Shown here piece by piece: positions 47,824-64,000 of a stretch of DNA of 64,000 nucleotides. The position numbers were made by a program, and so were the translations under genes. Numbering within the stretch: the first letter of the stretch is position 1; each line of letters begins with the position of its first letter. The notes beneath the pieces are model-generated. The model did no database searches and was not told where the DNA came from. It worked only from the letters and a program-made list of their open reading frames with translations. Origin of the DNA: Segatella paludivivens DSM 17968 = JCM 13650 (GTDB taxonomy: Bacteria; Bacteroidota; Bacteroidia; Bacteroidales; Bacteroidaceae); assembly GCF_000373185.1 (NCBI RefSeq), contig NZ_KB890671.1, forward strand, positions 1 through 64,000, in the 5' to 3' direction.

Positions 47824-47852
47824 TTGCATTTTTAAAAAAATTGTTATCTTTG
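47824..47852 (+). promoter_or_regulatory. Predicted promoter of the first GH28-like gene
   Basis: TTG at 47824-47826 and TATCTTTG at 47845-47852 (18-base spacer); the ATG is 25 bases downstream. The box covers the alternative TTG start at 47841. Confidence 0.7.
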
Positions 47853-47876
47853 CCACGAAACTTTCAACATTTGTCC

Positions 47877-49214
47877 ATGATTCGCATTACGAGGAAAACA
47901 TTTTTACTAACTACCATATTCCTTGTCTTGACACTTTTCGTCAAGGCGGAGAGTGTTTATAACGTAATGTCTTATGGTGCAAAAGGTAATGGTGTTGCCG
48001 ATGATGCTTCTTCAATACAAAAAGCAATAGATAAATGTGAGCAAAGTGGTGGTGGAATTGTTTTGTTCCCATCTAATCATGTTTTTATTTCAGGTCCATT
48101 ACAGTTGAAGTCAAATGTAGAACTTCATCTCGAAACAACTGCTACACTGAAGGCCAATCCTGACGAGACGGTTTATCACATTAGCGCATTTGGAAAGAAC
48201 CAAGGTGAGGGCATGTTGTGGATATGGGCAAACAATGCTGATAATATTTCTATCACAGGAAAAGGATGTATCCATGGAAACGGAATAAGTTTTATGGGTA
48301 AGGACCTTAATGATAGTTATGAATTAAAGCCAGTGACAACTTTTGATCCGCGTCCCCATGTTCTTAGTCTTACAGATGTTCGCAATCTCACTATAAAGGA
48401 TGTTACAATACGTGAAGGCGCATATTGGACAGTGCATCTTATAGGATGTGACGGTGCTGTGATTGATGGAATAAACCTGCTTAACAACTTGAAAATCCGT
48501 AATGGCGACGGAATAGATATAGACCATAGTAAGAACATTCGCATTGCTAATTGCCACATCACAAGCGGTGATGATGCAATTTGTCTGAAGAATAGACGTG
48601 AATTTCAGCAATATGGTTCATGCCATGATATCGTGATTACCAACTGCGTAATGGCAAGTCGCAGCTGCACTGTTAAGATTGGATCTGAAAATATGGATTC
48701 CATTTACAATGTCACAGTTGATAATTGTATAATTAAAGGCAGCAATCGTGGACTTGGAATACAGAATCGTGACGAAGGAACAGTTACAAATGTGATGTTC
48801 TCTAATATCATCTTAGACTGTAGGTTGTGGAGTGACGTTTGGTGGGGAAAGGCTGAACCTATCTATGTTACGAGCTATCCACGTGCCAACGGCAATAATA
48901 AGGACGCTAACTGGCGATTCCCGAAGGGACAGACAGAGGGTCACTCTGGAGAAGTGAGCAATATTTACTTTAATAATATTGTTGCAACATCAGAGAATGG
49001 ATGTTTCATTGGTGGAGACACAAAAGACAAGGTCAACAACATTCACTTTAATAATGTAGTACTGAAAAAAACAAGACAAACAAAATATGACACGGGCATT
49101 TATGATAAGCGCCCATGCCGTGGAGATGGCTATATATATAATAATCTGGATGCTATAGTGACCGAGAACGTTGCGACTTTGGATACAACAGGCGTGAAAG
49201 CCTATGGATTCTAA
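47877..49214 (+). CDS. GH28-like parallel beta-helix glycosidase
   Basis: The 445-residue exported protein has a signal peptide (residues about 7-23) and a pectate-lyase-like N-terminus VMSYGAKGNGVADDASSIQKA. GH28-type acidic motifs are present: NGDGIDID at 209-216 and GDDAICLK at 231-238. The canonical GHG and RIK motifs are not: the corresponding positions read SCTVKIGSE (263-271) and RGLGIQ (291-296). It is therefore family-related, but polygalacturonase activity should not be assumed. It lies just before SusC/SusD, with its own promoter, so its substrate should be an exported glycan. Confidence 0.75.
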   Translation: MIRITRKTFLLTTIFLVLTLFVKAESVYNVMSYGAKGNGVADDASSIQKAIDKCEQSGGGIVLFPSNHVFISGPLQLKSNVELHLETTATLKANPDETVYHISAFGKNQGEGMLWIWANNADNISITGKGCIHGNGISFMGKDLNDSYELKPVTTFDPRPHVLSLTDVRNLTIKDVTIREGAYWTVHLIGCDGAVIDGINLLNNLKIRNGDGIDIDHSKNIRIANCHITSGDDAICLKNRREFQQYGSCHDIVITNCVMASRSCTVKIGSENMDSIYNVTVDNCIIKGSNRGLGIQNRDEGTVTNVMFSNIILDCRLWSDVWWGKAEPIYVTSYPRANGNNKDANWRFPKGQTEGHSGEVSNIYFNNIVATSENGCFIGGDTKDKVNNIHFNNVVLKKTRQTKYDTGIYDKRPCRGDGYIYNNLDAIVTENVATLDTTGVKAYGF

Positions 49215-49322: not shown

Positions 49323-52322
49323 ATGCGTAGAGTACAAAATCAAATCCGGAGAAACTGTAAGCGAGTCATCGCTTCAGCTTTGCTTCTATTCTTAAGTACA
49401 ATAGCATTTGCACAAAGTAAAATCACGGGTACCGTAAAGGATGCCAGTGGTGAACCACTTATTGGTGTAAGTGTTGTTGAAGTCGGAACAACAAATGGAA
49501 CTGTTACCGACATTGACGGTAACTATGTGTTGAATGTAAAGCCTGGAGCAAAGCTCAGGGTTTCTTATGTTGGATTTAATCCACAGGAAATAAAAGCTGG
49601 CAATAATAATCAGATTATATTAAAAGAAGACAATAAAACTCTTAATGAGGTGGTTGTCGTAGGTTACGGTACAATGCGCCGTAAGGATGTAACAAGTTCT
49701 ATCACTACAGTTAAGTCAGAAGATTTGAATGTCGGAGTTTTCTCTGATGCAGCAAGTATGTTGCAAGGAAAGGTCGCTGGTTTGGTGGTAACATCAAGTG
49801 GTGACCCTAACGGTTCTCCTAGTATAACTCTTCGTGGTGCATCTTCATTACGTACAGGAGATGCTATGCAGCCATACTATGTAATTGATGGTATTCCTGG
49901 TGTAGACATCTCTATGGTTGCTCCTGATGATATTGAGAGCATAGACGTACTTCGTGATGCTACAGCTACAGCTATCTATGGTTCAAAGGCAGCCAACGGC
50001 GTTATAATTATTACGACCAAGAGTGGTAAGAATGGTAAAGACCGTACAAGCGTAACATATTCTGGTTATGTAGCTTTTGACAATGCATTGAAGACATTGG
50101 ATATGGCTTCTGCTGATGACATTCGTAATTATGTAACAGCCAATAAATTGGATTATGCCTATGATGGTAAATCAAGTACAGACTGGCAAAAGCAAGTTCT
50201 TCGTACTGGCGTAAGCCATAATCATAATTTGTCTATTAATGGAGGTTCAAACAAGACTACTTATGTAGCTAGTGTAAACTTCGCTAATCGTGAGGGTGTT
50301 GTAGAGGGGTCAGGCATGAATCGTTTGAACGTTCGTTCTTTGATTACAACAAAAGTTCTTAAAGATCGTTTGGAACTTTCTGCAGGTGTAAATTCACTAT
50401 ACGCAAAACATAAGGGTGTAGCCAATGGATGGGATGGTGAGTCTGTCCTTGATGCGATGAACTATTATAATCCAACATTGCCAGTTAAAAATACTGATGG
50501 TACATGGTCTGATGGTTCTGGTTCACAAAACTATAATCCACTTTCTTTGATTAATGAGGATACTTCTGAGACAATGTACAAACGTATGCAGTTTATCGGT
50601 AAAGCAAGTCTTAAGATTATGGATGGCTTTGTTTGGAATATGAACTATTCTTATGATAATATGCAGAGTACATATAGTTCTTATGATTCTCATAATTCTC
50701 AGCTTCCTGGATTGAAAGATTACAATGGTCGTGCAACTCGTAATACATATTTTAATAATTCGCAGACTTTTGAAACTTTTGGAAACTATGATAAGACTTT
50801 CAATAAAGTTCACAAATTATCATTGATGGCGGGTTATTCTTGGGAAGAAAAAAATAATAATGACGGTTTCGGTCTAACAGTTCATAACTTCTTTGATGAT
50901 ATTTTGAAGTGGAATAATCTTACTTACGCTGGTGCTATTGACGGAATGCCTGCTATTCAAAGTGGAACAAAAGAAACTATTCGTAATATTTCTTTCTATG
51001 GCCGTTTGAGTTATTCTTATAATAGCAAATATATGCTACAGGCTACTATCCGTCGTGATGGTTCTTCAGTATTTGGTAGTGGTCACCAATGGGGAACATT
51101 CCCTTCAGTAAGTGCTGCTTGGAATATTACAGAGGAATCATTCATGAAAAATCAAAACGTATTTTCTAACTTGAAACTTCGTGTTGGTTATGGTGTCAGT
51201 GGTAACGCACTTGGATTTGGTGCTTATTCTGCAGTAAGTACTTATGGTTCATCAGGTTCTTATTTTACATATAATGGAAATAGCTATGTAACTCTAGGTG
51301 CAACAAAGTTGGCTAATCCAGATTTGAAATGGGAGACAACAGGCATGTTGAATATTGGCTTAGACTATGCTTTGGCTGGTGGTCGTATCAATGGATCTAT
51401 TGAATTCTATAATAAGAAAACAAAAGATTTGATTTGGGATTATCCAGTTTCTCCTTATATCTATCCATTTAATCAAATTGCTGCAAATGTTGGTGAAATA
51501 ACAAATAGAGGTGTTGAATTCTCATTGAATGCAACAGCAATAAAGACTAAGAGCTTCACTTGGAATACAACTCTTAACTTGTCACATAATGTGAATAAGG
51601 TAAATAAGTTGTCTAATGATTCTTATGAGACATCTACATTTGCACAGGGCGATCCTCGTGTAGCAGGCGTTTCTGCGAATGGTTTTACTCAGCGTATTAT
51701 GGAAGGCGAACCTCTTGGTACATTCTATACTTATGAGTTTGCTGGTTATGATGCTAATGGCAAGTCAACATATTATGTGCATGATGAAACAACAGGTAAG
51801 CGTACTGGTGAAGTAACAAATTCTCCAGCATACAAGGATCGTACTATTACAGGTTGTGCACAGCCTAAATTGAATCTTGGTTTGAACAATACATTTAATT
51901 ACAAGAATTGGAATGCCGACATGTTCTTCACGGGCGTATTCGGTAATAAAATTTATAATGGTACACGTGCTCATTACACAGCTCCAGACTTCTTCTCTGG
52001 TGGCAAGAATGTCTTGAAGGAATATGTTACCTCTCGTCCTGTTACTGATAACCTTTCAAATATTCCATCTGATCGCTACATTGAAAATGGAAGTTATCTT
52101 CGCTTGCAAAGTCTTTCAATTGGTTACACATTCCGTAAGTTTAATGATTGGATTCAATCAGCACAGGTTTATGTAACTTGCAATAATGTATTTACCATTA
52201 CAAGTTATAAGGGCCTTGATCCAGAAGTTAATTTGGGTGGAATTGATCCAGGTGTAGATTATCGTTGGAACAATTATCCTCACACACGTACATTCTTGAT
52301 TGGTATGAAAGTCAATTTCTAA
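49323..52322 (+). CDS. SusC-like TonB-dependent outer-membrane transporter
   Basis: The 999-residue protein imports oligosaccharides across the outer membrane with its SusD partner. After a signal peptide (about residues 12-31) comes a carboxypeptidase-like regulatory domain (KITGTVKDASGEPLIGVSV to VLNV, about 35-80), then the SusC plug (EVVVVGYGTMRRKDVT, ASMLQGKVAGLVV, LRGASSL, VLRDATATAIYGSKAANGVIIITTKSG) and a 22-strand barrel ending GMKVNF. No STN domain is present, so it is not an anti-sigma signalling form. SusD follows 18 bases later. Confidence 0.96.
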   Translation: MRRVQNQIRRNCKRVIASALLLFLSTIAFAQSKITGTVKDASGEPLIGVSVVEVGTTNGTVTDIDGNYVLNVKPGAKLRVSYVGFNPQEIKAGNNNQIILKEDNKTLNEVVVVGYGTMRRKDVTSSITTVKSEDLNVGVFSDAASMLQGKVAGLVVTSSGDPNGSPSITLRGASSLRTGDAMQPYYVIDGIPGVDISMVAPDDIESIDVLRDATATAIYGSKAANGVIIITTKSGKNGKDRTSVTYSGYVAFDNALKTLDMASADDIRNYVTANKLDYAYDGKSSTDWQKQVLRTGVSHNHNLSINGGSNKTTYVASVNFANREGVVEGSGMNRLNVRSLITTKVLKDRLELSAGVNSLYAKHKGVANGWDGESVLDAMNYYNPTLPVKNTDGTWSDGSGSQNYNPLSLINEDTSETMYKRMQFIGKASLKIMDGFVWNMNYSYDNMQSTYSSYDSHNSQLPGLKDYNGRATRNTYFNNSQTFETFGNYDKTFNKVHKLSLMAGYSWEEKNNNDGFGLTVHNFFDDILKWNNLTYAGAIDGMPAIQSGTKETIRNISFYGRLSYSYNSKYMLQATIRRDGSSVFGSGHQWGTFPSVSAAWNITEESFMKNQNVFSNLKLRVGYGVSGNALGFGAYSAVSTYGSSGSYFTYNGNSYVTLGATKLANPDLKWETTGMLNIGLDYALAGGRINGSIEFYNKKTKDLIWDYPVSPYIYPFNQIAANVGEITNRGVEFSLNATAIKTKSFTWNTTLNLSHNVNKVNKLSNDSYETSTFAQGDPRVAGVSANGFTQRIMEGEPLGTFYTYEFAGYDANGKSTYYVHDETTGKRTGEVTNSPAYKDRTITGCAQPKLNLGLNNTFNYKNWNADMFFTGVFGNKIYNGTRAHYTAPDFFSGGKNVLKEYVTSRPVTDNLSNIPSDRYIENGSYLRLQSLSIGYTFRKFNDWIQSAQVYVTCNNVFTITSYKGLDPEVNLGGIDPGVDYRWNNYPHTRTFLIGMKVNF

Positions 52323-52340: not shown

Positions 52341-53948
52341 ATGAATACAAATATAAAATTATTATTTGCAACTGGCATCCTGACTCTTGCTGTTGGTTGT
52401 ACCGACTTAGATGTTCCAGTAGCGTCTCAATATACAACATATCCAAGTAGTGAAATCGCTATTCAGGCTAAACTGGCCAACATATATTTCAAAATGAAAG
52501 ATTGCTTTGGTCGTCGATATATGGAGGCACAGGCTCTTTCTAGTGATGAAGAAACCGCTGTTGCATATAATGGTGGTTGGTTAGATGCTTATGCTTATGC
52601 TCATCCTAGTCTTCATGACTACACATACGAAGACGCTACTTTAGACTGGATGAATAATCTTGGAACAGGAACAGTAACTGCAAATGAAGTTATCAATAGT
52701 GATGCTGATGTTAAGTATGTTGCTCCAGCTCGTGCTATGCGTGCTTTCTTTGAGTTCATCATGATGGATTCTTGGGGTGATGCCCCTATCATTGATAATA
52801 CAGTAAAAGGTATTGATATTCGAGATCGTCAGCCTCGCGCAGATGTTGCAAGATATATAGAAAAAGAGCTTCTTGCAATAATTCCAGACCTTCCAACAGA
52901 TGTTAATGGAGATAATTATGGAAAGCCTTCAAAATATATGGCTGAGGCTCTGCTTGCCAAGTTGTATATCAACTGGCCTGTTTATACTGCTGCATCTGTA
53001 GATCAATATGATGCTGCAACAGCAAAGAATGAGAAGCTTGATGACTGTATCAAGATTTGTGATGATATCATTAAATCAGGTAAGTTTAATCTTGGTTCAA
53101 TGGCTTATCGCTTTAAGTTTGGTCCAAACAACTCTAGTTTGAAGGTTGAGGACTTCATTTATGTGATGCCTTATGATACCTATACAGCAACTGGTATGCA
53201 ATATGGTCGTGCACATTCTTATAAGGATGTGAAGAGCATGAATCCTAGTTACTATGGTATGAACCTTTCAAACTCTGGTGGTGGTTACATGACAGTTACT
53301 CCAGAATTCGCAAGTTTGTTTAATCTACCTGGTGATGAACGTAATAATTGTATCATCGGTGACACGGTTCATGTATATGATCCTACAACTCTTTTGCCAA
53401 CAAGTAAAGTTGCTCTTGACCAAACCGGTAAACCTTTGGTGCTTACAAAGAGTATTACTTTGATAAAGCAAGATGAAACTCTTGATGTTGGTGATAATTT
53501 AACAGGATGGCGTCAAGGTTATCGTCCAATAAAATTCTTTGTAACGAATGATGATTTCAAAAATGGACGTAACCAGTCTAATGACTTGCCAATATTCCGT
53601 TACGCTGATATTTTGTTAGAAAAGGCTGAGGCAATCACACGTGGCGGAACTGCTACAAATGGCGAGACAGCTCAGAGCTTGTTCAATCAGATTCGTTCTT
53701 ATGTAAAGGCCCCAACAATAGATCATAATCCAACTCTTCAGGAAATTTATGAGGAGCGTGGACGTGAGTTCTTTGATGAAAACTGGCGTCGTAATGATAT
53801 GATTCGTTTCGGTCATTTTGAAGATGAGTATTTCCCTCATTATAAGGGATTCCCAGGTGCAAACTTTGATAAGACTCGTCGAATCTTCCCAATACATAAG
53901 CAAGATCTTGATGTGAATCCAAGATGGAAACAGAACCCAGGTTATTAA
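52341..53948 (+). CDS. SusD-like glycan-binding lipoprotein
   Basis: The 535-residue surface lipoprotein has a lipobox ending LAVGC (Cys20) and the RagB/SusD fold: an N-terminal helical TPR-like half (AIQAKLANIYFKM, AMRAFFEFIMMDSWGDAP) and the C-terminal FRYADILLEKAEAITRGG and EERGREFFDENWRRNDMIRFG, then FPIHKQDLDVNPRWKQNPGY. It caps the SusC channel and binds the glycan. A hairpin after the gene may lower transcription of the downstream enzymes. Confidence 0.96.
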   Translation: MNTNIKLLFATGILTLAVGCTDLDVPVASQYTTYPSSEIAIQAKLANIYFKMKDCFGRRYMEAQALSSDEETAVAYNGGWLDAYAYAHPSLHDYTYEDATLDWMNNLGTGTVTANEVINSDADVKYVAPARAMRAFFEFIMMDSWGDAPIIDNTVKGIDIRDRQPRADVARYIEKELLAIIPDLPTDVNGDNYGKPSKYMAEALLAKLYINWPVYTAASVDQYDAATAKNEKLDDCIKICDDIIKSGKFNLGSMAYRFKFGPNNSSLKVEDFIYVMPYDTYTATGMQYGRAHSYKDVKSMNPSYYGMNLSNSGGGYMTVTPEFASLFNLPGDERNNCIIGDTVHVYDPTTLLPTSKVALDQTGKPLVLTKSITLIKQDETLDVGDNLTGWRQGYRPIKFFVTNDDFKNGRNQSNDLPIFRYADILLEKAEAITRGGTATNGETAQSLFNQIRSYVKAPTIDHNPTLQEIYEERGREFFDENWRRNDMIRFGHFEDEYFPHYKGFPGANFDKTRRIFPIHKQDLDVNPRWKQNPGY

Positions 53949-54027: not shown

Positions 54028-54765
54028 ATGAAAAAAACTATTATTTATTTATGTGCTGTTTGCGGTTTGCTGTCACTAGCACAACCAATATCTGCTAACG
54101 AAATAAATGAAAATGCGGATACAACAAACATTATGCTGGTAAAGCAATATGGAAGTTTCATTAAGGATGGACGCCCTGTACAATATTGTGCAGATAAAGG
54201 TTTGTTGATTATCGTTTCTCCAGGAAATGATTATACAAGACCTGTGATTGTGTTGCGCAACAAAACGGGTAAGGCTTTTGATTTTAAACCAGAGGGTATA
54301 AGTGTTCATGCTCTTGCAATGAAAGGCGTGAAGAGTAAGGACACACGTTATCTTACTACTGCGAAATACATTAAGGATGGAGGAAAAAAAGAAAATGTTG
54401 AAAGAGACTCTTTGCCAATCTATTCATATTCAAAATACATAAGTAAAGTACGTAACCAGCAAGCTTGGGGAAATGTACTTGGTGGACTGGCTGATGGTGC
54501 TATTGATGCAATGGCCTATAATCCTCAGTCAACTACTGATAGAATACTGTTGGATCAGAATAATGAACAGCGTTATAAAGAAAACGCTAAGGAAGATGAA
54601 GCCCAGATTAAGAAAATCGTAGACGGCTATTGGAAAGAAAATACTATATTTAATAATACAGAGCATTCTGGTTTTGTAGCTTTTAAAGGTGTAAAAACAG
54701 ATAATGTTATTTATTCAATATCCGTAAATGGTGAGAAATATGAATTTACATTCTATTTCAATTAA
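54028..54765 (+). CDS. Exported protein of unknown function within the PUL
   Basis: The 245-residue protein begins with a signal peptide (IIYLCAVCGLLSLAQPISANE). The mature part starts with beta-rich sequence (MLVKQYGSFIKDGRPVQYC and GLLIIVSPGNDYTRPVIVLRNKTG), has a helical, charged middle (NNEQRYKENAKEDEAQIKKIV) and ends in beta strands (VIYSISVNGEKYEFTFYFN). I recognise no family or catalytic motif. Its end overlaps the start of the next GH28-like gene by 26 bases, so it belongs to the locus and may assist glycan binding or enzyme localisation; that is inference. Confidence 0.7.
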   Translation: MKKTIIYLCAVCGLLSLAQPISANEINENADTTNIMLVKQYGSFIKDGRPVQYCADKGLLIIVSPGNDYTRPVIVLRNKTGKAFDFKPEGISVHALAMKGVKSKDTRYLTTAKYIKDGGKKENVERDSLPIYSYSKYISKVRNQQAWGNVLGGLADGAIDAMAYNPQSTTDRILLDQNNEQRYKENAKEDEAQIKKIVDGYWKENTIFNNTEHSGFVAFKGVKTDNVIYSISVNGEKYEFTFYFN

Positions 54766-56245
54766 GGGAATATTGCTATTTTTTATTTGCCTATTCATTG
54801 GTGATAATGTATCGTATGCAATAGTTCTTAATACGACAAAATTAAAGATAGCCAATGACGGTAATACATTATGCACGCTGCAATTGCAGCGTGCAATTGA
54901 TAGAGTCTGTAATAATGGTGGCGGCAGACTTGATGTAACTCCTGGTAAATATCTTACTGGGAGTATTATGCTAAAGAGTGGAGTCGAATTGCATCTTATG
55001 AACGGTGCTGTGATTCTGGGTAGTACCAATCCTAAAGACTATTATTCAATAAATGCTAAACCTACAGCAGACAAGCGCAATGATAATTCAAACATTGCGC
55101 TTGTGTTGGCTGATAACGCCGAGAATATCAGTATTACTGGTATTGGAACTATTGACGGTCAGGGATTGATACTTGCACTAAATATTGACAGTCTCTATCA
55201 TAAGGGAATGTTGAAAGATAATAATTATAATGTCAGACGAATGCGACCTAGTGAACAGGTACGCCCCAAACTATTCTATTTTTATAAATCAAAGAATGTC
55301 ACCGTTTCTGATTTGCAGTTGAAAAACAGTTCATGCTGGGGATTATCGTTCGACCTTTGTGTTAATTTAAATCTTAAAAATCTTAGTATCAATAATCGTG
55401 CATACTGGAATAATGACGGTATTGATATTGACGATTGCCAGCGGGTTAAGATATCAGACTGCGAAATTAATTCTGCTGACGATGCTATCTGTCTGAAATC
55501 TTATCATGCAAATTCTTCTTGCGTAGATGTAGATATTCAGCGATGTAACTTGAAAAGTAGTGCTAGCGGTGTTAAGTTTGGTACAGCTTCCTGGGGAGGT
55601 TTCAAAAATATTCATATAGCCGACATCAAAGTTTTAGATACATTCCGTTCGGCAATAGCTTTAGAGAGTGTTGATGGTGGTTGCATTGATAGCGTATGTG
55701 TTGAACGGATTAATGCCGTAAACACTGGTAATGCTATCTTTCTTAGACTTGGTCAGCGCGCAGGAAGCAAAAAAGGATGTATGAAAAACATTATTCTTCG
55801 TGATATTACTTGTACTATTCCTTTTGAAAGACCAGATAAAAATTATGATCTTCGTGGTCCGGAAGTTGATTTTTTCCATAACCCTTTTCCAAGTAGCATT
55901 TGTGGAATACCTGGCAACAAGATACAAAACGTTATGCTTGAGAATATCAATATAGTTTATCCAGGTAGGGCAACAATGGGAATGGCTTACGTTCCGTTGT
56001 GGCGTGCTGATAAGATAGACGAACAGATAAAGTCGTATCCCGAATTCTCAATGTTTGGAGAACTTCCTTCATGGGGCTTTTATGTGAGGCATGTTTCTGG
56101 GATAACTTTCAGCAATGTGAAATTGTCACTTGCTGATAATGATTTCCGTCCAGCAATTGTATTCGAAGATGCTGCCGACGTTACGTTGAAAGACGTTACA
56201 TTTCCAGGAGACAAAAGCCGACAAATATATTTCGTTGACAAATAA
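54740..56245 (+). CDS. GH28-like parallel beta-helix protein (second)
   Basis: The 501-residue exported protein has a signal segment (ILLFFICLFIGDNVSYA) and a beta-helix with GH28-type acidic motifs NNDGIDIDD (224-232) and SADDAICLKS (245-254). The canonical GHG is replaced by SASGVKFGTAS (274-284), and no RIK motif was found; this combination recurs in Bacteroidetes GH28-like proteins of unknown specificity, by my recall. The sequence is clearly different from the first GH28-like protein at 47.9 kb. ATG 54740 overlaps the preceding stop by 26 bases. Confidence 0.7.
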   Translation: MNLHSISIKGILLFFICLFIGDNVSYAIVLNTTKLKIANDGNTLCTLQLQRAIDRVCNNGGGRLDVTPGKYLTGSIMLKSGVELHLMNGAVILGSTNPKDYYSINAKPTADKRNDNSNIALVLADNAENISITGIGTIDGQGLILALNIDSLYHKGMLKDNNYNVRRMRPSEQVRPKLFYFYKSKNVTVSDLQLKNSSCWGLSFDLCVNLNLKNLSINNRAYWNNDGIDIDDCQRVKISDCEINSADDAICLKSYHANSSCVDVDIQRCNLKSSASGVKFGTASWGGFKNIHIADIKVLDTFRSAIALESVDGGCIDSVCVERINAVNTGNAIFLRLGQRAGSKKGCMKNIILRDITCTIPFERPDKNYDLRGPEVDFFHNPFPSSICGIPGNKIQNVMLENINIVYPGRATMGMAYVPLWRADKIDEQIKSYPEFSMFGELPSWGFYVRHVSGITFSNVKLSLADNDFRPAIVFEDAADVTLKDVTFPGDKSRQIYFVDK

Positions 56246-56253
56246 CTTATTTT

Positions 56254-58821
56254 ATGCGCCGTATCCAGTTTATTATATCATTATTTTTTGCGTTGTCTAT
56301 CCATGCGCAATACACAAAGTTTGTAGATCCTAAAATAGGCAGTGAAGGACAAGGACGTGTCTTTATTGGTCCCTCAATGCCTTATGGAATGGTTAAGCCT
56401 GGTCCTGATTGTGTATCAATGCCAAATGCCGGTTGGGAGAAAATGCCTGAAGCCGTAAAGGGTTTCAGTCAGACTCATGTTAGTGGAACAGGTGGAGGAC
56501 AGAAATACGGCAATATCCTTATCCAACCGTTTAAGGGAACAGCCTTTATGACAGAATATCCTCAGCATCGCAGTGCCGAGACAATGTCGTTGGGATATTA
56601 TTCTTGTGATTATGAAGAAGGTCCCCAGACAGAGATCACCACAAGTGAACGTTGTGCAATCTATCGTTTAAGAAACCTTGACGGCTTATTTGTCGACGCC
56701 CATACATTTCTAGGTATAGACACTATTCCCAACAAACGTGAGGCGCAGCAGTTTGTTGGCAGTGAGATAAATATAAATGGCGAGTATCAAATAACAGGAT
56801 ACTCCACAGTTAGAGGAGGTTGGAATAATGGTGGACCATATACAGTGTATTTCTGTCTTCAGAGCGATGTGCCGTTTAAGAAAAGTATGACCCAAGATAG
56901 CAAATATGCGTGGGTGATGTTTGATAAATCAACCGTGAATGTGAAGATTGGAATCTCTTTCGTTTCAACAGACAAAGCAAGACAGAATATCGTTAGTTGT
57001 GGATTTGATGACCAATTGGCGCATCTTCACAGTACGTGGAATGGTTTGCTCTCAAAGATTAAAATAAATGCATCTGAATTGCAGTCACGAATGTTCTATA
57101 CTGCACTTTATCATACAATGCTGATGCCTGTAGACCGAAGCGGTGAAAATCCTAACTGGACGGCTGTTCCGTATTATGATGATTACTATGCTATATGGGA
57201 TACCTATCGTACTTCGTCTCCGCTTATTACACTCCTTTCTCCACAAAGGCAGCGTGATATCGTGAACTCGCTCATAAACATATATGACAACGAAGGCTAT
57301 ATGCCAGATGCACGAAGTGGAAACTGCAATGGAAGAACACAGGGCGGAAGCAATGCCGATATTGTCATTGCCGACGCATTTGCTAAGGGACTCTCTGGTA
57401 TAGACTATGAACATGCATTCAAGGCAATGATAAAAGATGCCGAAGTGGCTCCCGTTGACGCTGAGAAGGAAGGGCGTGGAGGAATTGCAGAATATAATTC
57501 ATTGGGTTACATTCCTTATGGAATAGACCGTGCTGGGAACAGAACCGTAGAATACAGTTACGATGACTGGTGCATTGCGCAAGTAGCAAAAGGGTTAGGA
57601 TACAAAGCTCTCTATGATAAATATCTGAAGCGCTCAGGCAACTGGCGTAATCTATGGCGTAGTGATTATCAGTGGCATGGAATGCGCGGATTTATAATGC
57701 CTCGTGATGCCGATGGTAATTGGTTGGATTCTGTTGTATGGGGTAAATCCAAAGTCTATTATCCTCTTATTCCATATACTCCCGATACGAAGGTTGCACC
57801 GTGGTATATTCCTTGGTGGGGAACATTCTTCTATGAAGCCCTTTCGGCAGAATATAGTTTGAGTATTCCTCACGATGTAAAAGGACTTATTCAGGCTTGT
57901 GGAGGGAAGACACAATTTATAAAGCGACTTGACACATTCTTTGAAAACAATCATTATAATGTGGCTAATGAACCAAGTTTTATGACCCCCTATCTCTATC
58001 ATTGGGCAGATAGACCAGAACTTAGTTGCGAGCGCATTAGGCAGATTGTAAATGATAATTACAGTGATCGTCCCGATGGTCTTCCTGGTAATGACGATAG
58101 TGGGGCTATGTCTTCATGGTTAGTCTGGAATATGTTGGGACTTTATCCTGTTGCAGGTCAGAATCTTTATCTAGTAGGTTCACCGCTTATAAAGTCGTAT
58201 TCAATAGATTTGCCAAATGGCAGAACATTGGACGTTGACGCAAAAGGCGATAGATGGAAAATGAATTTCATCAGACATGAGGATATTCTCAAAGGTGGAA
58301 CATTGCACTTGCCTAATCATAATGCTGTGGCAAAGTCGCCGAAAACGAAAGAAACAGAAAGCACACGTGCTTTTAATTTATCAGCAAGTGCAACAACACA
58401 TCTTTGTAAATTTGTTCTTAACAGACAGTATCGAAACTGGATAGTGAAGTGTGATCTATCAAACAACGATACATTGCGACTTTTATGTAACAACTCGCTC
58501 TATTCCATCCCAAAAACTGTAATGGAGAATGCAGAAGGTTTCTGTTGGTATAGTCCACAGAAGGGTAGTAATATTTATAAATGCAATGAAACATTCCTTT
58601 TTATTTCATTCAAAGCTTTGAGTGAATTAAAACGTGACGGCATGTTTGTATATAATGGGATTACATGGCGAATGATCAATGCTGACGCAAATATCATTAC
58701 AGTTAAGGCTGATATAGACGGCACAATAATGAAAATTTCTACATCGGCAGAATTGCCATGGGTGTTAGAAATGCGCAATAACCCATTGGGAATAGATTGG
58801 AATTTGGAATTAAATGATTAA
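56254..58821 (+). CDS. GH92 family glycosidase
   Basis: The 855-residue exported protein has a signal peptide (FIISLFFALSIHAQ) and the GH92 N-terminus FVDPKIGSEGQGRVFIGPSMPYGMVKPGPD (read in pieces). GH92 enzymes are calcium-dependent inverting exo-alpha-mannosidases; the probable acid Glu573 in VANEPSFMTP and the Asp pair 614-615 in GNDDSGAMSSW, where the base is found, are present. A C-terminal extension of about 150 residues after the GH92 core is beta-rich. It lies 8 bases after the second GH28-like gene. Linkage specificity (1,2, 1,3, 1,4 or 1,6) cannot be read here. Confidence 0.9.
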   Translation: MRRIQFIISLFFALSIHAQYTKFVDPKIGSEGQGRVFIGPSMPYGMVKPGPDCVSMPNAGWEKMPEAVKGFSQTHVSGTGGGQKYGNILIQPFKGTAFMTEYPQHRSAETMSLGYYSCDYEEGPQTEITTSERCAIYRLRNLDGLFVDAHTFLGIDTIPNKREAQQFVGSEININGEYQITGYSTVRGGWNNGGPYTVYFCLQSDVPFKKSMTQDSKYAWVMFDKSTVNVKIGISFVSTDKARQNIVSCGFDDQLAHLHSTWNGLLSKIKINASELQSRMFYTALYHTMLMPVDRSGENPNWTAVPYYDDYYAIWDTYRTSSPLITLLSPQRQRDIVNSLINIYDNEGYMPDARSGNCNGRTQGGSNADIVIADAFAKGLSGIDYEHAFKAMIKDAEVAPVDAEKEGRGGIAEYNSLGYIPYGIDRAGNRTVEYSYDDWCIAQVAKGLGYKALYDKYLKRSGNWRNLWRSDYQWHGMRGFIMPRDADGNWLDSVVWGKSKVYYPLIPYTPDTKVAPWYIPWWGTFFYEALSAEYSLSIPHDVKGLIQACGGKTQFIKRLDTFFENNHYNVANEPSFMTPYLYHWADRPELSCERIRQIVNDNYSDRPDGLPGNDDSGAMSSWLVWNMLGLYPVAGQNLYLVGSPLIKSYSIDLPNGRTLDVDAKGDRWKMNFIRHEDILKGGTLHLPNHNAVAKSPKTKETESTRAFNLSASATTHLCKFVLNRQYRNWIVKCDLSNNDTLRLLCNNSLYSIPKTVMENAEGFCWYSPQKGSNIYKCNETFLFISFKALSELKRDGMFVYNGITWRMINADANIITVKADIDGTIMKISTSAELPWVLEMRNNPLGIDWNLELND

Positions 58822-58852: not shown

Positions 58853-61800
58853 ATGAAAAAGACCCTATCTTTATTGTTACTGCTTTTATGCTTCGTCAGT
58901 CTTTCTTATGCTCAGAAATCACGAGAGCAGATGGGCGGCGTTTACTATGCATACCAAGCTCCGCAAAATATCACCTACTCAAAAGTTCCTGAAGGCTATC
59001 ATGTATTCTATATTTCGCATTATGGTCGTCATGGTTCACGTTGGCTCCCATCTGACTCACGCTACGAATGGGTGAATAGTCAGTTTGCTGACGATTCTAA
59101 TCTTACAAAGTTAGGAAAGAGTCTTAAGAAACGACTTGCAAAAGTTTGGAATAACGCGAAGGGCAATGGTGGAAAACTCACAGCTCTTGGTGCTGCACAG
59201 CATCGTGGTATTGCCGATAGAATGTATGCTAACTTTCCAGAAGTATTTAATGGGAACAAAGTCACTGCACACGCTAGTATAGTGGGGAGATGTGTGAAAA
59301 GTATGCAGTCGTTCAGCGACGAACTTAATAAACTCATGAAGGGAGAGACAGCTGTTCAACAGACTGTTGATTCTGCTGATATGGTTTGGATCGCTAACGA
59401 GTCACCAGAACTGAGAGCTCTTTCTGCACGAACAAAAGTTAAGGCTTATATCAACGGACAACGTTTTGCAGCTGCATTGTTTAAAGATCCTTCAAAGATA
59501 TCAGATCCAGATAAACTTATGGGAGAGATTCATGCTATTGCTTCTGATATGCAGGATGTTGAGTTGAAGATAAGGTTTGACGATGTTATAAACGATGACG
59601 AATGTCGTGCCGTATACGAACAGAACAATGAGCGCATGTGGATTTGTAACGGTCAGTCTCCTGATAATTACAGTGCACCTTCACGTTCAGCATTTAGCCT
59701 TTGGAATGATATTGAGACTAAGGCTGATAATGCCGTTGCCAATGGTGGTACGTCTGCTGACCTCAGATTCGGACACGATACAGCATTGTATCATCTAATG
59801 TCGCTTCTAGGTATTTCAACTCTTTCTGATGAACGTGTTGATAAGATGGACGAGGTTGTTCCGATGGCTGCAAACTTGCAAATGATATTTTATACCAATG
59901 GTAAGAATGTTATTGTGAAGCTGATGCTTAATGAGCATGAAGTGAAACTTTTCGGACTGCGTCAGGAAAGTCCTTACTTTCAATGGGAGTCATTAAAGAA
60001 ATATGTACATAAGAGAATGCAGAATGCTTTGTTACATGGACAGATAGAGGCTATAAATACAATGGTGGGAACTGACTTTTCTGTTATCCGCAATGCCGGT
60101 GTTTATGGAAATGGTAAGGAGGAACACGGACAGACTCTACCTGCTGCATTTGAACCTAATGGAATGAACTTCTGGACTCCGCAGACACAAGATACAGAAC
60201 AAAAATGTCTTGCTCCTTATTATTATAGAGACAAGAAGTTTCAAGGATTCCGTGCAAGTCATTGGATGGTAGGTGGATGTACTCAGGACTATGGCTCTTT
60301 CACTCTTATGCCAGAAATGGACGTACTTCGCCTTAAACCGGAAGAGCGTGCTTCACGTTTCAGCCATGCAGATGAAATTTCTCATCCTGATTATTATTCT
60401 GTCGTACTGCCTGATGAACACCTTCAAGCTGAAATGACCGGAATGAGCCACACCGCAATGTTCCGTTTTAAGTATAATAAGAGTGGTAAAGCCTATTTCG
60501 TAGTAAATGCAAATAGTGACGAAAAAGAAGGCTTTATTGCTGTAGACACCGCAAAAAACTGCATTTATGGTTACAATCCAGTGCATCGTATTTATCAAGG
60601 TTGGGGTGAAAAGGCTGGTTTCAATGGCTGGTTTGCCGTGCAATTTGAGGATCCTATTGTGGAATATGGTGTTAAAGACTCTGTAGCTTACGTTGCTTTC
60701 GATGTAAATGAAGGCGACGAGATATTAGCCAAGGCGTCAACGAGTTTTGTTGACATGAAGGGCGTATTCAATAATATTGCTCAAGAAGTTCCACATTGGG
60801 AATTTTATGACACTCGTTGCCGTGTTGTCTCATCTTGGCAAAGCAAGTTAGCAAAAGTAATAGTAGGGTCTTCTGATACGGCTGCCGTAAACAAGTTCTA
60901 TGGCGCATTGTATCGTGCTAGTTTCCTTCCTCGTGCATTCAGTGACAAGGATGGTCGCTATCCGTCTTTCGCTGGTGGAAAGAAGATAATGCAACATTCT
61001 CTAGGGGCATTTGCCGGTAGACCAATCTATCGTCGCGTTTATCAGGATTTCTCAATGTGGGATACTTATCGTGCACTGTGTCCGCTGAATATTATAATTG
61101 ATAATAAAACAGGTGGTTATCTGCAAAGTCTTGTTGATATGTATCAGCAAGGTGGTTGGCTGCCAATATTCCCCGCATGGAATAGTTATACAGCTGCCAT
61201 GATTGGTGATCATTGCAGTGCAGCCCTTGCTGAAGGAATCGTGAAAAATGTAAGCGGATTTGATGAAAAGATTGCTTATGAAGCAATGCGCAAGAATGCC
61301 TTTGAGAGTCCTAAGACTTTTGAGGAATACAAGAATGGAATGGGACGCCGTGCCTTGAAAAACTATTTGAAGTATGGGTATATTCCAATGGAGGATAGTG
61401 TTATGGAGGCTTTTCATACGCACGAGCAGGTGAGCCGCACTCTTGAATATGCTTATGATGATTATGCCTTGGCTCAGGCAGCAAAGGTCTTGGGCAAGAC
61501 AGATGATTATAAATTGCTTATGAAGCGTGCTGCTAATTGGAAAAATGTTATTAATCCTGTTACCGGTTGGGCTGATGGACGCTATAAGAATGGTAAATGG
61601 CTTGGCAACAAGGATATCTTGAGTAGGGTGCCATTCATCACAGAGGGAGCAGCAATTCATTATTCTTTCTATGTTCCACATGATGTTTATGGATTGATTA
61701 AGGTTATGGGTGGAAAAGATAAATATGTGTCTAAATTGGATTACCTCTTTGGAATATCTAATGCTTCAGACGATTCTACCTTCACAAAATCATATTATTG

Positions 61801-62257
61801 GCATGGAAATGAACCGTGTCATCAGATTCCTTATATGTATGCCTATGCTGGAGAACCATGGAAGACTCAGCGAATAGTTCGCCACATCATGGATAAAGAA
61901 TATCTCGATGTTCCTGGTGGACTAAGCGGTAATGATGACGCTGGGCAGATGAGTGCATGGTATATGTTTTCGGCAATTGGATTTTATCCTGTTTGTCCTG
62001 CTTCACAATATTACGTAATTGGAACGCCTACATTCAAAAAAGTAACGATTGGTGAATTCGTAATAGAAGCAGAGAACGTTTCAGACAAGAATTTCTATAT
62101 ACAGAGTGCAACGTATAACGGAAAGCCTTATACTCATAACTACATTACTCACGAAATGGTGAAAGGAAATGGAGTGTTGAAATTTGTTATGGGACCAAAT
62201 CCTAATAAGAATTGGGGTAGTGCAAGCAACGATTGTCCACCTGACTTAATGAAATAA
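58853..62257 (+). CDS. Histidine acid phosphatase-GH92 fusion enzyme
   Basis: The 1134-residue exported protein has two enzyme domains. After a signal peptide (LSLLLLLLCFVSLSYA) comes a histidine-acid-phosphatase domain, about 25-405: SHYGRHGSRW with the catalytic RHGSR at 59-63, the conserved Arg in VGRCVKSM near 146 and the second motif FGHDTAL with HD at 308-309. The rest, about 412-1134, is a GH92 domain with GNEPCHQ (Glu987) and GNDDAGQMSAW (Asp1028-1029). Both sets of catalytic residues look intact. It starts 31 bases after the first GH92 gene. Coupled removal of phosphate and mannose from a phosphorylated glycan is inference. Confidence 0.88.
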   Translation: MKKTLSLLLLLLCFVSLSYAQKSREQMGGVYYAYQAPQNITYSKVPEGYHVFYISHYGRHGSRWLPSDSRYEWVNSQFADDSNLTKLGKSLKKRLAKVWNNAKGNGGKLTALGAAQHRGIADRMYANFPEVFNGNKVTAHASIVGRCVKSMQSFSDELNKLMKGETAVQQTVDSADMVWIANESPELRALSARTKVKAYINGQRFAAALFKDPSKISDPDKLMGEIHAIASDMQDVELKIRFDDVINDDECRAVYEQNNERMWICNGQSPDNYSAPSRSAFSLWNDIETKADNAVANGGTSADLRFGHDTALYHLMSLLGISTLSDERVDKMDEVVPMAANLQMIFYTNGKNVIVKLMLNEHEVKLFGLRQESPYFQWESLKKYVHKRMQNALLHGQIEAINTMVGTDFSVIRNAGVYGNGKEEHGQTLPAAFEPNGMNFWTPQTQDTEQKCLAPYYYRDKKFQGFRASHWMVGGCTQDYGSFTLMPEMDVLRLKPEERASRFSHADEISHPDYYSVVLPDEHLQAEMTGMSHTAMFRFKYNKSGKAYFVVNANSDEKEGFIAVDTAKNCIYGYNPVHRIYQGWGEKAGFNGWFAVQFEDPIVEYGVKDSVAYVAFDVNEGDEILAKASTSFVDMKGVFNNIAQEVPHWEFYDTRCRVVSSWQSKLAKVIVGSSDTAAVNKFYGALYRASFLPRAFSDKDGRYPSFAGGKKIMQHSLGAFAGRPIYRRVYQDFSMWDTYRALCPLNIIIDNKTGGYLQSLVDMYQQGGWLPIFPAWNSYTAAMIGDHCSAALAEGIVKNVSGFDEKIAYEAMRKNAFESPKTFEEYKNGMGRRALKNYLKYGYIPMEDSVMEAFHTHEQVSRTLEYAYDDYALAQAAKVLGKTDDYKLLMKRAANWKNVINPVTGWADGRYKNGKWLGNKDILSRVPFITEGAAIHYSFYVPHDVYGLIKVMGGKDKYVSKLDYLFGISNASDDSTFTKSYYWHGNEPCHQIPYMYAYAGEPWKTQRIVRHIMDKEYLDVPGGLSGNDDAGQMSAWYMFSAIGFYPVCPASQYYVIGTPTFKKVTIGEFVIEAENVSDKNFYIQSATYNGKPYTHNYITHEMVKGNGVLKFVMGPNPNKNWGSASNDCPPDLMK

Positions 62258-62356: not shown

Positions 62357-64000
62357 TTAACGACGAACGACTGCTACAAAACCTCCTCTAGGCAAACAAT
62401 CAATTTTAAGAGTTTGCTGGGCGTTTTTAGCTGCATCGATGGCAAAACTTCTTCCATCGGGACCATCTGTGAAGAGTGCAAATGTCTTGGCGTTTGGTGC
62501 AAGTTGCGTTGGATTAAATGTCAACGTCAGCTTTTGGTCGGTTCCATTAATACCTCCTACATACCAAGTATTGCCTTTTCTTCGTGCAATAACTACTGAA
62601 GTTCCAGGGTATCCGCTCAAGAAGCGAGTTTCATCCCATACGGTAGGTAAAGTAGCAAACAACTTTTTTACCTGTGCAGGCATTGCTTCATAAGCTGAAG
62701 GACGGTCTGGATTATGTAGCAAAGCCGACTCAAACAAAATAGGAAGAGCCAGTTCATGTGCATGTGTGGTGATATGAGGATACTGAGAATCAGTAAAAGT
62801 TCCTGGAGTGTAGTCCATTGAGCCTACTATATTTCGAGTAAATGGTAGAGTGGCATTATGGCTAGCAGCAGCCTTAGTCATCTTTCCATTGTTGTTGTAC
62901 CATTCAGCACCATAAACAGCTTCGGTCGTCATAAGGTTCGGATAGGTGCGTTGCCATCCACGAGGCAGGGTCGCTCCATGAAAAACCACCATCAAATGAT
63001 GACGAGCTGCCGATTTAAGAATGTCGATACATAGATTCATGTCTTGTGCGTCGTCACCTTTAAAAAAGTCTACCTTGATGCCTTTGACACCTATCTTTTC
63101 CAACCAAGAGAATTCTTTTTCTCTCTTGTCGGAGTCATTAAGTCTATAAAAAGGACCAGGAGCTCCATTGCTCACCCAATTCATACTAGAATTGTACCAT
63201 ACCATTATTCCTATCTTCTTTGAGTTTGCATAGGCAACAGCATCTTCAACATTACCACCATTGCCCATTTCGTCCCATTCTGCATCGATCAAACTATAAG
63301 GCCAATGCATATCAACTGCCAAATCAATGTATTCTTTTACTCTCTTAAAGTCGCGTGAACCATGATTATAAGCCCAATAAATCCAAGACACACTTCCTGG
63401 ATGAATCCAATCAGTCTTTTTCAGAACATTTGGGTCTGCAACATCGGTCACTCTTGTAGACTGAACTATCGTAGCCAAGTTGCCAGCTAGTACAACACGC
63501 CACGATGATTCCCACTTGTCACCTTGGGTAGATTGTGAAGGATCAGCAAATTCCACATGGTAAGCGTCTGGTTTGGTTTGGTTGTTCAATCGAGATGCAC
63601 AATGATTGTAGGTGATGTTTGATTCGGTGAGGAATAGATATAGTCCGTTTGATATTTCCATCAATGCAGGATAAGCCCATAGACGATTGTTTGGTCGGTT
63701 GGCATCATATCCAGCTGTGGTAAGGGGATAAAAAGCTTCATAGCTATCTGGAATATATTTTTGTATCCAACGTTTAGTGCCTTCAGCGATAGGATAGACT
63801 GTTAAATCTTTGAGAATTTTCTCGTCTTGTGAAGTCTTTATTTGATAACGGAAAGCCATACCATCGTTGGCAAGTTTGAAGACAACCGAAAGCACCTGCT
63901 GATTGGCATTGACAAAGTTTATTGTTTGCTCTGTTTCTGTCTTTGTGCTATGCGTTTGCTTTCCTTCTAAAAGTGTATAATCAATCTTGTTCTTTTTACT
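62357..64000 (-). CDS. GH97 family glycosidase, partial at right edge
   Basis: The minus frame is open from the window edge at 64000 to its stop at 62357, about 547 residues of a longer protein; the N-terminus lies outside. The catalytic barrel has SLIDAEWDEMG, GVKGIKVDFFKGDDAQDMN (Asp in KVDFF), HGATLPRGWQRTYPNLMTTEAVYGAEWY, and a C-terminal beta domain. The KVDFF Asp favours the retaining alpha-galactosidase type over the inverting SusB-type alpha-glucosidase, by analogy with the two characterised Bacteroides GH97 classes as I recall them. It is convergent with the GH92 operon and may or may not belong to the same locus. Confidence 0.85.
   Translation of the reverse strand, partial: SKKNKIDYTLLEGKQTHSTKTETEQTINFVNANQQVLSVVFKLANDGMAFRYQIKTSQDEKILKDLTVYPIAEGTKRWIQKYIPDSYEAFYPLTTAGYDANRPNNRLWAYPALMEISNGLYLFLTESNITYNHCASRLNNQTKPDAYHVEFADPSQSTQGDKWESSWRVVLAGNLATIVQSTRVTDVADPNVLKKTDWIHPGSVSWIYWAYNHGSRDFKRVKEYIDLAVDMHWPYSLIDAEWDEMGNGGNVEDAVAYANSKKIGIMVWYNSSMNWVSNGAPGPFYRLNDSDKREKEFSWLEKIGVKGIKVDFFKGDDAQDMNLCIDILKSAARHHLMVVFHGATLPRGWQRTYPNLMTTEAVYGAEWYNNNGKMTKAAASHNATLPFTRNIVGSMDYTPGTFTDSQYPHITTHAHELALPILFESALLHNPDRPSAYEAMPAQVKKLFATLPTVWDETRFLSGYPGTSVVIARRKGNTWYVGGINGTDQKLTLTFNPTQLAPNAKTFALFTDGPDGRSFAIDAAKNAQQTLKIDCLPRGGFVAVVRR

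Follow-up and report, generated by a model that had tools for sequence, protein, structure and literature searches.

A histidine acid phosphatase joined to a GH92 glycoside hydrolase

The window analysed here is a stretch of 64,000 nucleotides from Segatella paludivivens DSM 17968 = JCM 13650 (contig NZ_KB890671.1). At positions 58853-62257 of the plus strand, a single frame of 1134 amino acids encodes a histidine acid phosphatase (HAP) and a family 92 glycoside hydrolase (GH92) in one protein, with both catalytic sets complete. An earlier note on this DNA had described such an exported fusion, and the description is borne out by Pfam, by a match to Protein Data Bank (PDB) structure 7r5y and by a confident model resembling multiple inositol polyphosphate phosphatases (MINPPs). 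The Pfam comparison proposed at the time placed His_Phos_2 (PF00328) above its gathering cut-off (27.1 against 23.6 bits, E 3.4e-6, best stretch at residues 304-360). It also matched Glyco_hydro_92N (PF17678; 139.3 against 34.5 bits, E 2.3e-40, residues 419-631) and Glyco_hydro_92 (PF07971; 504.1 against 24.6 bits, E 5.5e-151). The N-terminus reads as a type I signal peptide, and the protein is probably periplasmic. The motif positions first reported (RHGSR at 59-63, H308-D309, E987 and D1028-D1029) were all correct. The features of the fusion gene are as follows.

58853-58912, plus strand: signal peptide, MKKTLSLLLLLLCFVSLSYA followed after the apparent cut by Q, ending YAQ; judged type I by eye from the sequence
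58916-60067, plus strand: HAP domain of MINPP type, residues 22-405 (PF00328, 7r5y match, model)
59027-59041, plus strand: RHGSR motif, residues 59-63, with His60 the expected nucleophile; invariant in 10/10 aligned fusions
59774-59779, plus strand: His308-Asp309, proton-donor motif, HD as in 7r5y; invariant in 10/10 aligned fusions
60053-60745, plus strand: junction and GH92 N-terminal domain, residues 401-631 (PF17678, junction alignment)
60770-62197, plus strand: GH92 catalytic domain, residues 640-1115 (PF07971)
61643-61645, plus strand: Glu931 (ITEG), predicted GH92 general acid (2wvx alignment)
61811-61813, plus strand: Glu987 (HGNEP), not the acid; aligns with a Gln of BT3990
61934-61939, plus strand: Asp1028-Asp1029, with Asp1029 the predicted general base (2wvx alignment)

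Among solved structures, the phosphatase half matched 7r5y, the MINPP of Prevotella sp. CAG:617 (E 1.4e-42, residues 28-390), and also the Bacteroides thetaiotaomicron MINPP (BtMINPP). An AlphaFold2 model of the domain, built from 48 sequences, reached a mean pLDDT of 93.2 and a pTM of 0.91. When it was searched with Foldseek, ranks 1-32 were all MINPPs, headed by 7R5Y (6.5e-28). VIA-align superposed the model on 7R5Y over 374 residues with a root-mean-square deviation of 2.2 and a Z score of 47.0, followed by the BtMINPP entries (Z 45-46), fungal phytases (32-33) and general acid phosphatases (about 23-25). The HAP fold postulated in the earlier note is thus reproduced by the model and, by predicted fold and by sequence, the phosphatase half is of the MINPP type, which points to inositol phosphate and away from mannose-6-phosphate. 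The proton-donor tripeptide HAE, which we take to be the wild-type BtMINPP motif, is not present in the fusion, which has HD instead. Since 7R5Y, itself a MINPP, likewise has HD, HAE does not define the whole MINPP subfamily.

The C-terminal half matched 7zgm, 2wvx and further solved GH92 enzymes. The alignment to BT3990 (2wvx) pairs Glu931 with the acid Glu533 and Asp1029 with the base Asp644, the chain positions having been converted to BT3990 numbering by hand. The roles of these BT3990 residues follow PMC10167667 and PMC5930347. The GH92 catalytic set previously proposed is therefore complete and its base stands, while the role of acid passes from Glu987 to Glu931. The loop with His584-Glu585 at the +1 subsite of BT3990, a pair that drives alpha-1,2 specificity (PMC10167667), is a gap in the fusion protein in the 2wvx alignment. 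A full-length model of the fusion, built from 10 sequences, reached a mean pLDDT of just 59.5 and gives no reading on the relative orientation of the two active sites.

The surrounding polysaccharide utilization locus

The fusion gene follows GH28a, SusC, SusD, a gene for a 245-aa protein, GH28b and GH92b, and is in turn followed by GH97 on the opposite strand. The adjacent SusC/SusD pair stands together with glycoside hydrolases, the criterion for a polysaccharide utilization locus (PUL). Eight window proteins (47.8-64 kb) were scanned with Pfam, giving two GH28, SusC, SusD, two GH92 (one of them fused), GH97 and one protein without a match; no endo-mannanase, of GH76 or similar, was found among these eight. 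The separate GH92 enzyme reported earlier for this locus is GH92b. The neighbouring genes are listed below.

47841-49214, plus strand: GH28a (Pfam); the likely start is a Met 36 bases downstream
49323-52322, plus strand: SusC-like TonB-linked outer-membrane protein (Pfam)
52341-53948, plus strand: SusD-like protein (Pfam)
54028-54765, plus strand: 245-aa protein with a signal-like N-terminus and no Pfam match (Pfam, BLAST)
54728-56245, plus strand: GH28b (Pfam); a relative in genome G025 (locus L040) is fused to a GDPD phosphodiesterase
56254-58821, plus strand: GH92b, the second GH92 (Pfam)
62357-64000, minus strand: GH97, alpha-galactosidase-like, its frame open at the window end (Pfam); 638 aa in genome G024

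GH28a keeps the aspartates (NGDGID, SGDD) and lacks the usual SHG/GHG histidine and RIK motifs. In polygalacturonases, the His and R-I-K residues help to bind the next galacturonate, that is, a second uronate. Without them, the leaving group of GH28a may not be a uronate.

Several observations concern the remaining neighbours. The 245-aa protein (54028-54765) was considered as a possible GDPD and gave no match to one. Among the loci compared by BLAST, a counterpart was found only in G024, a near relative, at 98% identity; L046 begins downstream of this gene. The C-terminal region of GH92b matches part of a domain, some 190 aa long, that stands at the N-terminus of the unfused HAPs L087:3177-4907 and L088:13109-14845. 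Sensor histidine-kinase-like proteins, perhaps sensors of these loci, lie between GH92b and the fusion in L036 (by Pfam) and in L038, L040 and L080 (by BLAST).

Recurrence, origin and partner genes in Bacteroidaceae

The phosphatase half was searched against 60 genomes, and the fusion was intact, with a matching frame of more than 1000 aa, in seven of them: G000 (the window's own), G024, G006, G020, G009, G031 and G013. Phosphatase-domain identity across these orthologous frames was 49-93%, and three named relatives are Prevotella metagenome genomes. G024 is a single contig; since it and five further genomes carry the orthologous frame, the fusion is not an accident of assembly. Nine other full-length fusions are 55-96% identical to the window protein, with no change at any catalytic residue across the ten. 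When the 399 genomes of the family were searched with a junction profile, 9 matched on both sides. Across 395 genomes of the phylum, the whole junction was found in the window's own genome only, while 11 others matched on the GH92 side alone. The occurrence count suggested in the earlier note has thus been made for these genome sets, and the fusion appears to be characteristic of certain Bacteroidaceae lineages, with the unfused GH92 ortholog more widespread. Broken copies also occur (L040, L041): split frames in G025, possibly assembly errors, and, in G016, which is a single contig, a remnant.

The two halves give different trees. In the HAP phylogeny, from which four partial pieces (L011, L040) were omitted, fused HAPs form one clade of 18 rows (17 different sequences; support 100/100). 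Together with four unfused HAPs of equivalent loci, they make up a 22-row clade (100/98). The other HAPs, 7r5y included, fall in a 26-row clade, and L013 and L015 lie just outside the 22-row clade. The fused phosphatase therefore shares common descent with HAPs encoded near unfused GH92 genes. Members of the 22-row clade also differ in sequence: M262 is present in 21/21 aligned members, where 24/27 other HAPs have Trp, and R261 in 19/21, where 11/27 others have Trp. In the alignment, R261-M262 occupy the positions of BtMINPP R275-Q276, which were mutated by the depositors of 9QYV and 9QYW; BtMINPP also has the Arg, and M262 is the difference. Other HAP fusions exist in the same genus, namely HAP-GH28 (L043:4485-7202), HAP with a 5'-nucleotidase (L042:6716-9544) and DUF3089 followed by a HAP match (L044:8364-10664), and their HAP domains fall outside the clade of the window fusion.

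We call GH92c the unfused ortholog of the fusion's GH92, and extend the name to its fused counterparts. It was found in 55 genomes of the 399-genome family search at E values of at most 1e-50. In the GH92c tree, which omitted seven short pieces, fused domains are spread over more than one clade. A group of six that includes the window's branches with ten unfused sequences at weak support (80/78), and L085 with eleven others, two of them unfused, forms another group (93/92). Set against the single clade of fused HAPs, this split would fit either a single fusion event or two separate ones. The N-termini of L095 and L096 retain linker sequence, so these two seem to be former fusions whose phosphatase has been lost.

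Elsewhere in Bacteroidaceae, GH92c is often found near GH28a and in part also near a separate HAP, an alpha-N-acetylglucosaminidase (NAGLU, GH89) and an acetyltransferase of the heparan-alpha-glucosaminide N-acetyltransferase (HGSNAT) type. Unfused GH92c and HAP share one locus in L086, L087, L088, L092, L120 and L122. L120 is a tight run of GH92b-NAGLU-HGSNAT-GH92c-GH28a-HAP, and L121 has the identical run minus GH92c. In L085, the fused protein is accompanied by GH28a, NAGLU, GDPD, GH92b and SusD and, judging by coordinates, also HGSNAT. Partner genes are themselves fused in further loci: GH28a-HAP-GH92c in L084 (with a frame break inside GH92), GH92c-GH28a in L097 and L119, and GDPD-GH28b in L040.

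NAGLU is present in 45/55 GH92c genomes compared with 127/344 other genomes (172/399 in the family), and an HGSNAT-family match in 43/55, weak paralogs counted. The association of presence holds within the window's genus (6/7 versus 4/26, p 0.001). NAGLU lies at most 20 kb from GH92c in 18/55 genomes. Counting only genomes for which a NAGLU position is listed, G313 included, this is 18/45 versus 0/30 for other GH92 matches (24 genomes; Fisher p 2e-5); among the other GH92 matches listed, irrespective of that restriction, 0/89 are near a listed NAGLU. HGSNAT is at most 4 kb from a NAGLU in 35 of the 45 NAGLU-carrying GH92c genomes. A close GH28a occurs in 32/55, at a distance of no more than 20 kb from GH92c in 26/55. 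All five genes occur together in 8/55 GH92c genomes and four of the five in 11/55, a count limited to HAPs that are fused or close (at least 41% identity to L088), with more distant HAPs left out. In the window's genome, the sole NAGLU and the sole HGSNAT match are adjacent on contig C24. The former matches solved alpha-N-acetylglucosaminidases (6.2e-132). The latter matches solved heparan-alpha-glucosaminide N-acetyltransferases (2.1e-27) and keeps the aligned His, which we take to be the catalytic one.

Candidate substrates and known counterparts

These partner families suggest a set of bonds: alpha-mannose for GH92, terminal alpha-glucosamine or its N-acetyl form for NAGLU with HGSNAT, an alpha-uronosyl bond for GH28 and inositol phosphate for the MINPP-type phosphatase. 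The one common substrate known to us with a bond for each enzyme is the plant glycosyl inositol phosphorylceramide (GIPC). It consists of N-acetylglucosamine (a1-4), glucuronic acid (GlcA; a1-2) and inositol-1-phosphoceramide, with glucosamine (GlcN), mannose (Man), arabinose (Ara) and galactose (Gal) variants (PMC8099651; further structures in PMC9113257, PMC12201980 and PMC11907402); the GlcA bond is given as alpha-1,4 in PMC12039476. The leaf form, Man-GlcA-inositol-phosphate, calls for exactly the three domains fused in L084. Enzymes for mannose, GlcN(Ac), uronic acid and inositol phosphate are all encoded in the window's genome, NAGLU and HGSNAT on another contig.

We propose, at about even confidence, that the fusion is a two-headed periplasmic PUL enzyme that strips plant GIPC head groups, with location, activities, substrate and order of steps all inferred. 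The ceramide phosphodiester would be opened by GDPD or a metallophosphatase, where present, freeing the head group. SusC/SusD would import the phosphorylated oligosaccharide, to be dismantled in the periplasm. There the GH92 half would take off terminal alpha-mannose, HGSNAT would prepare terminal alpha-glucosamine for cleavage by NAGLU through N-acetylation, GH28a would split the uronic acid from inositol and the MINPP-type half would remove the phosphate from inositol at the opposite end. The fusion would thereby hold in one protein a mannosidase and an inositol phosphatase acting on two ends of one small molecule. A broader claim, to which we give slightly less than even weight, is that NAGLU, HGSNAT, GH92, an inositol-releasing GH28 and a glyco-inositol-phosphate-specific MINPP constitute the first dedicated bacterial system for GIPC head groups, repeatedly welded into multi-catalytic proteins.

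Several points weigh against the GIPC proposal. To our knowledge, all GH28 activities concern galacturonic acid or related pectic units; the proposal asks GH28a to act on glucuronic acid, which would be a specificity new to the family. Membrane lipids are not typical substrates of SusCD systems, and the head group would need prior release; GDPD or metallophosphatase genes were detected by BLAST with one reference each in just 5/31 GH92c loci (L040, L085, L088, L093 and L094). Of the GH92c genomes, 37/55 have either no NAGLU or none closer than 20 kb to GH92c, a close GH28a is found in just 32/55, and the NAGLU and HGSNAT of the window's genome lie outside the fusion's own locus, on another contig. 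The presence statistics are also partly confounded by genus. Genus g41 encodes a pectin-type triple fusion, GH28-GH88/105-GH92c, of about 1570 aa (L117:2176-6876, L118:1003-5715), which suggests a wider pectic role and speaks against a role in GIPC breakdown alone.

That same g41 fusion would fit a phosphatase half that is a mere phosphate-gathering phytase, incidentally fused, with GH92c serving pectin-associated glycans. MINPPs are phytases, the 7r5y structure contains a myo-inositol hexakis compound, and the genus has other HAP fusions. Yet the fused and locus-encoded HAPs form their own clade with changed residues (M262 in 21/21, Trp in 24/27 others) and stay with GH92c, often also with GH28a, which leaves this explanation rather unlikely. 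Glycosylphosphatidylinositol (GPI) anchors, or fungal GIPC and mannosyl-inositol glycolipids, would employ most of the same activities, the GH92s trimming alpha-mannose, HGSNAT and NAGLU the glucosamine and the phosphatase the inositol phosphate. GPI contains all three of these constituents, and the window locus, like some of the others, encodes two GH92 enzymes. GPI has no uronic acid, however, whereas GH92c has GH28a as its most frequent close partner (within 20 kb in 26/55 genomes and fused in L084, L097 and L119), and we judge these glycolipids an improbable substrate.

A uronic acid is present in the enterobacterial lipopolysaccharide core, where GlcN is a4-linked to galacturonic acid, itself a3-linked to a heptose, alongside phosphates. 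GH28 is a galacturonic acid family, GlcN on that acid would need HGSNAT and NAGLU, and GH92 might act on the manno-configured heptose. But the phosphatase is MINPP-type and this core has no inositol, no hydrolase for 3-deoxy-D-manno-octulosonic acid (Kdo) was named among the Pfam-scanned proteins, and some neighbours (GH97, GH43, GH127, GH27-type, GH35) suit plant Gal and Ara; the core is thus a very doubtful candidate. The substrate favoured in the earlier note, phosphomannan or mannose-6-phosphate N-glycans, on which the phosphatase would deal with mannose-6-phosphate before the mannosidase acts, fares little better and seems quite unlikely. GH92 is an alpha-mannosidase family, and the GH92 enzyme CcMan5 cuts Man-P-Man (cited in PMC5930347). 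Against this, the phosphatase is closest to inositol polyphosphate phosphatases, no endo-mannanase was found among the eight window proteins scanned and the fusion lacks the +1 His-Glu pair of alpha-1,2-mannosidases. The conserved partners GH28, NAGLU and HGSNAT, which mannan leaves unexplained, point instead to alpha-uronic acid and alpha-glucosamine.

We found no description of a GH92-HAP fusion in the open-licence PubMed Central (PMC) literature, outside which most subscription papers lie, and, among the papers listed from it, no GIPC utilization locus or gut-bacterial pathway of GIPC breakdown; a search of it for structure 7R5Y gave no paper. The sole match to "inositol phosphorylceramide" with "polysaccharide utilization", PMC8791184, concerns bacterial lipid synthesis, and PMC9246714 deals with the production of inositol lipids by Bacteroidetes. 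Each part belongs to a known family; as far as the literature searched goes, the architecture and the module are new combinations. GIPCs make up to 40% of total sphingolipids (PMC8099651) and are the most abundant plant plasma membrane sphingolipids (PMC12039476), so they are swallowed by every plant eater. If the GIPC proposal is right, five or six genes would supply testable enzymes for removing GlcN(Ac), Man, GlcA and phosphate, including a new GH28 activity, a new role for MINPPs and tools with which GIPC glycans can be analysed. Were the substrate another, the recurring NAGLU-HGSNAT-GH92-GH28-HAP module and its fusions would still be a coherent degradation pathway, with no known substrate assignable with certainty.

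Among known systems, the yeast alpha-mannan PULs of Bacteroides likewise combine a SusCD locus, GH92 enzymes and a phosphatase; here, in contrast, there is no GH76 or similar enzyme among the eight window proteins scanned, and the phosphatase is MINPP-type. The GH92 alpha-mannosidases BT3990, BT2199, BT3130 and B035DRAFT_03340/7ZGM share both GH92 domains and the conserved acid and base with the fusion, which unlike them has an added N-terminal phosphatase and lacks the His-Glu +1 motif of the alpha-1,2 enzymes. Extra domains also occur on the multi-domain GH92 of Neobacillus novalis (7NSN, PMC10167667), where they are CBM32 and other noncatalytic domains, whereas the addition here is a phosphatase. 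The MINPPs 7R5Y and BtMINPP (4FDT and 9QYx entries) have the fold and RHGxR in common with the fusion, and 7R5Y also HD, but identity to 7R5Y is only 28-30%, and the fusion has GH92 attached and belongs to a separate clade. In lysosomal heparan sulfate breakdown, HGSNAT and NAGLU act on terminal alpha-glucosamine and its N-acetyl form. Homologues matching the solved HGSNAT and NAGLU are paired in these bacteria too but, unlike in the heparan pathway, their partners are GH28, GH92 and MINPP, not glycosaminoglycan lyases or sulfatases.

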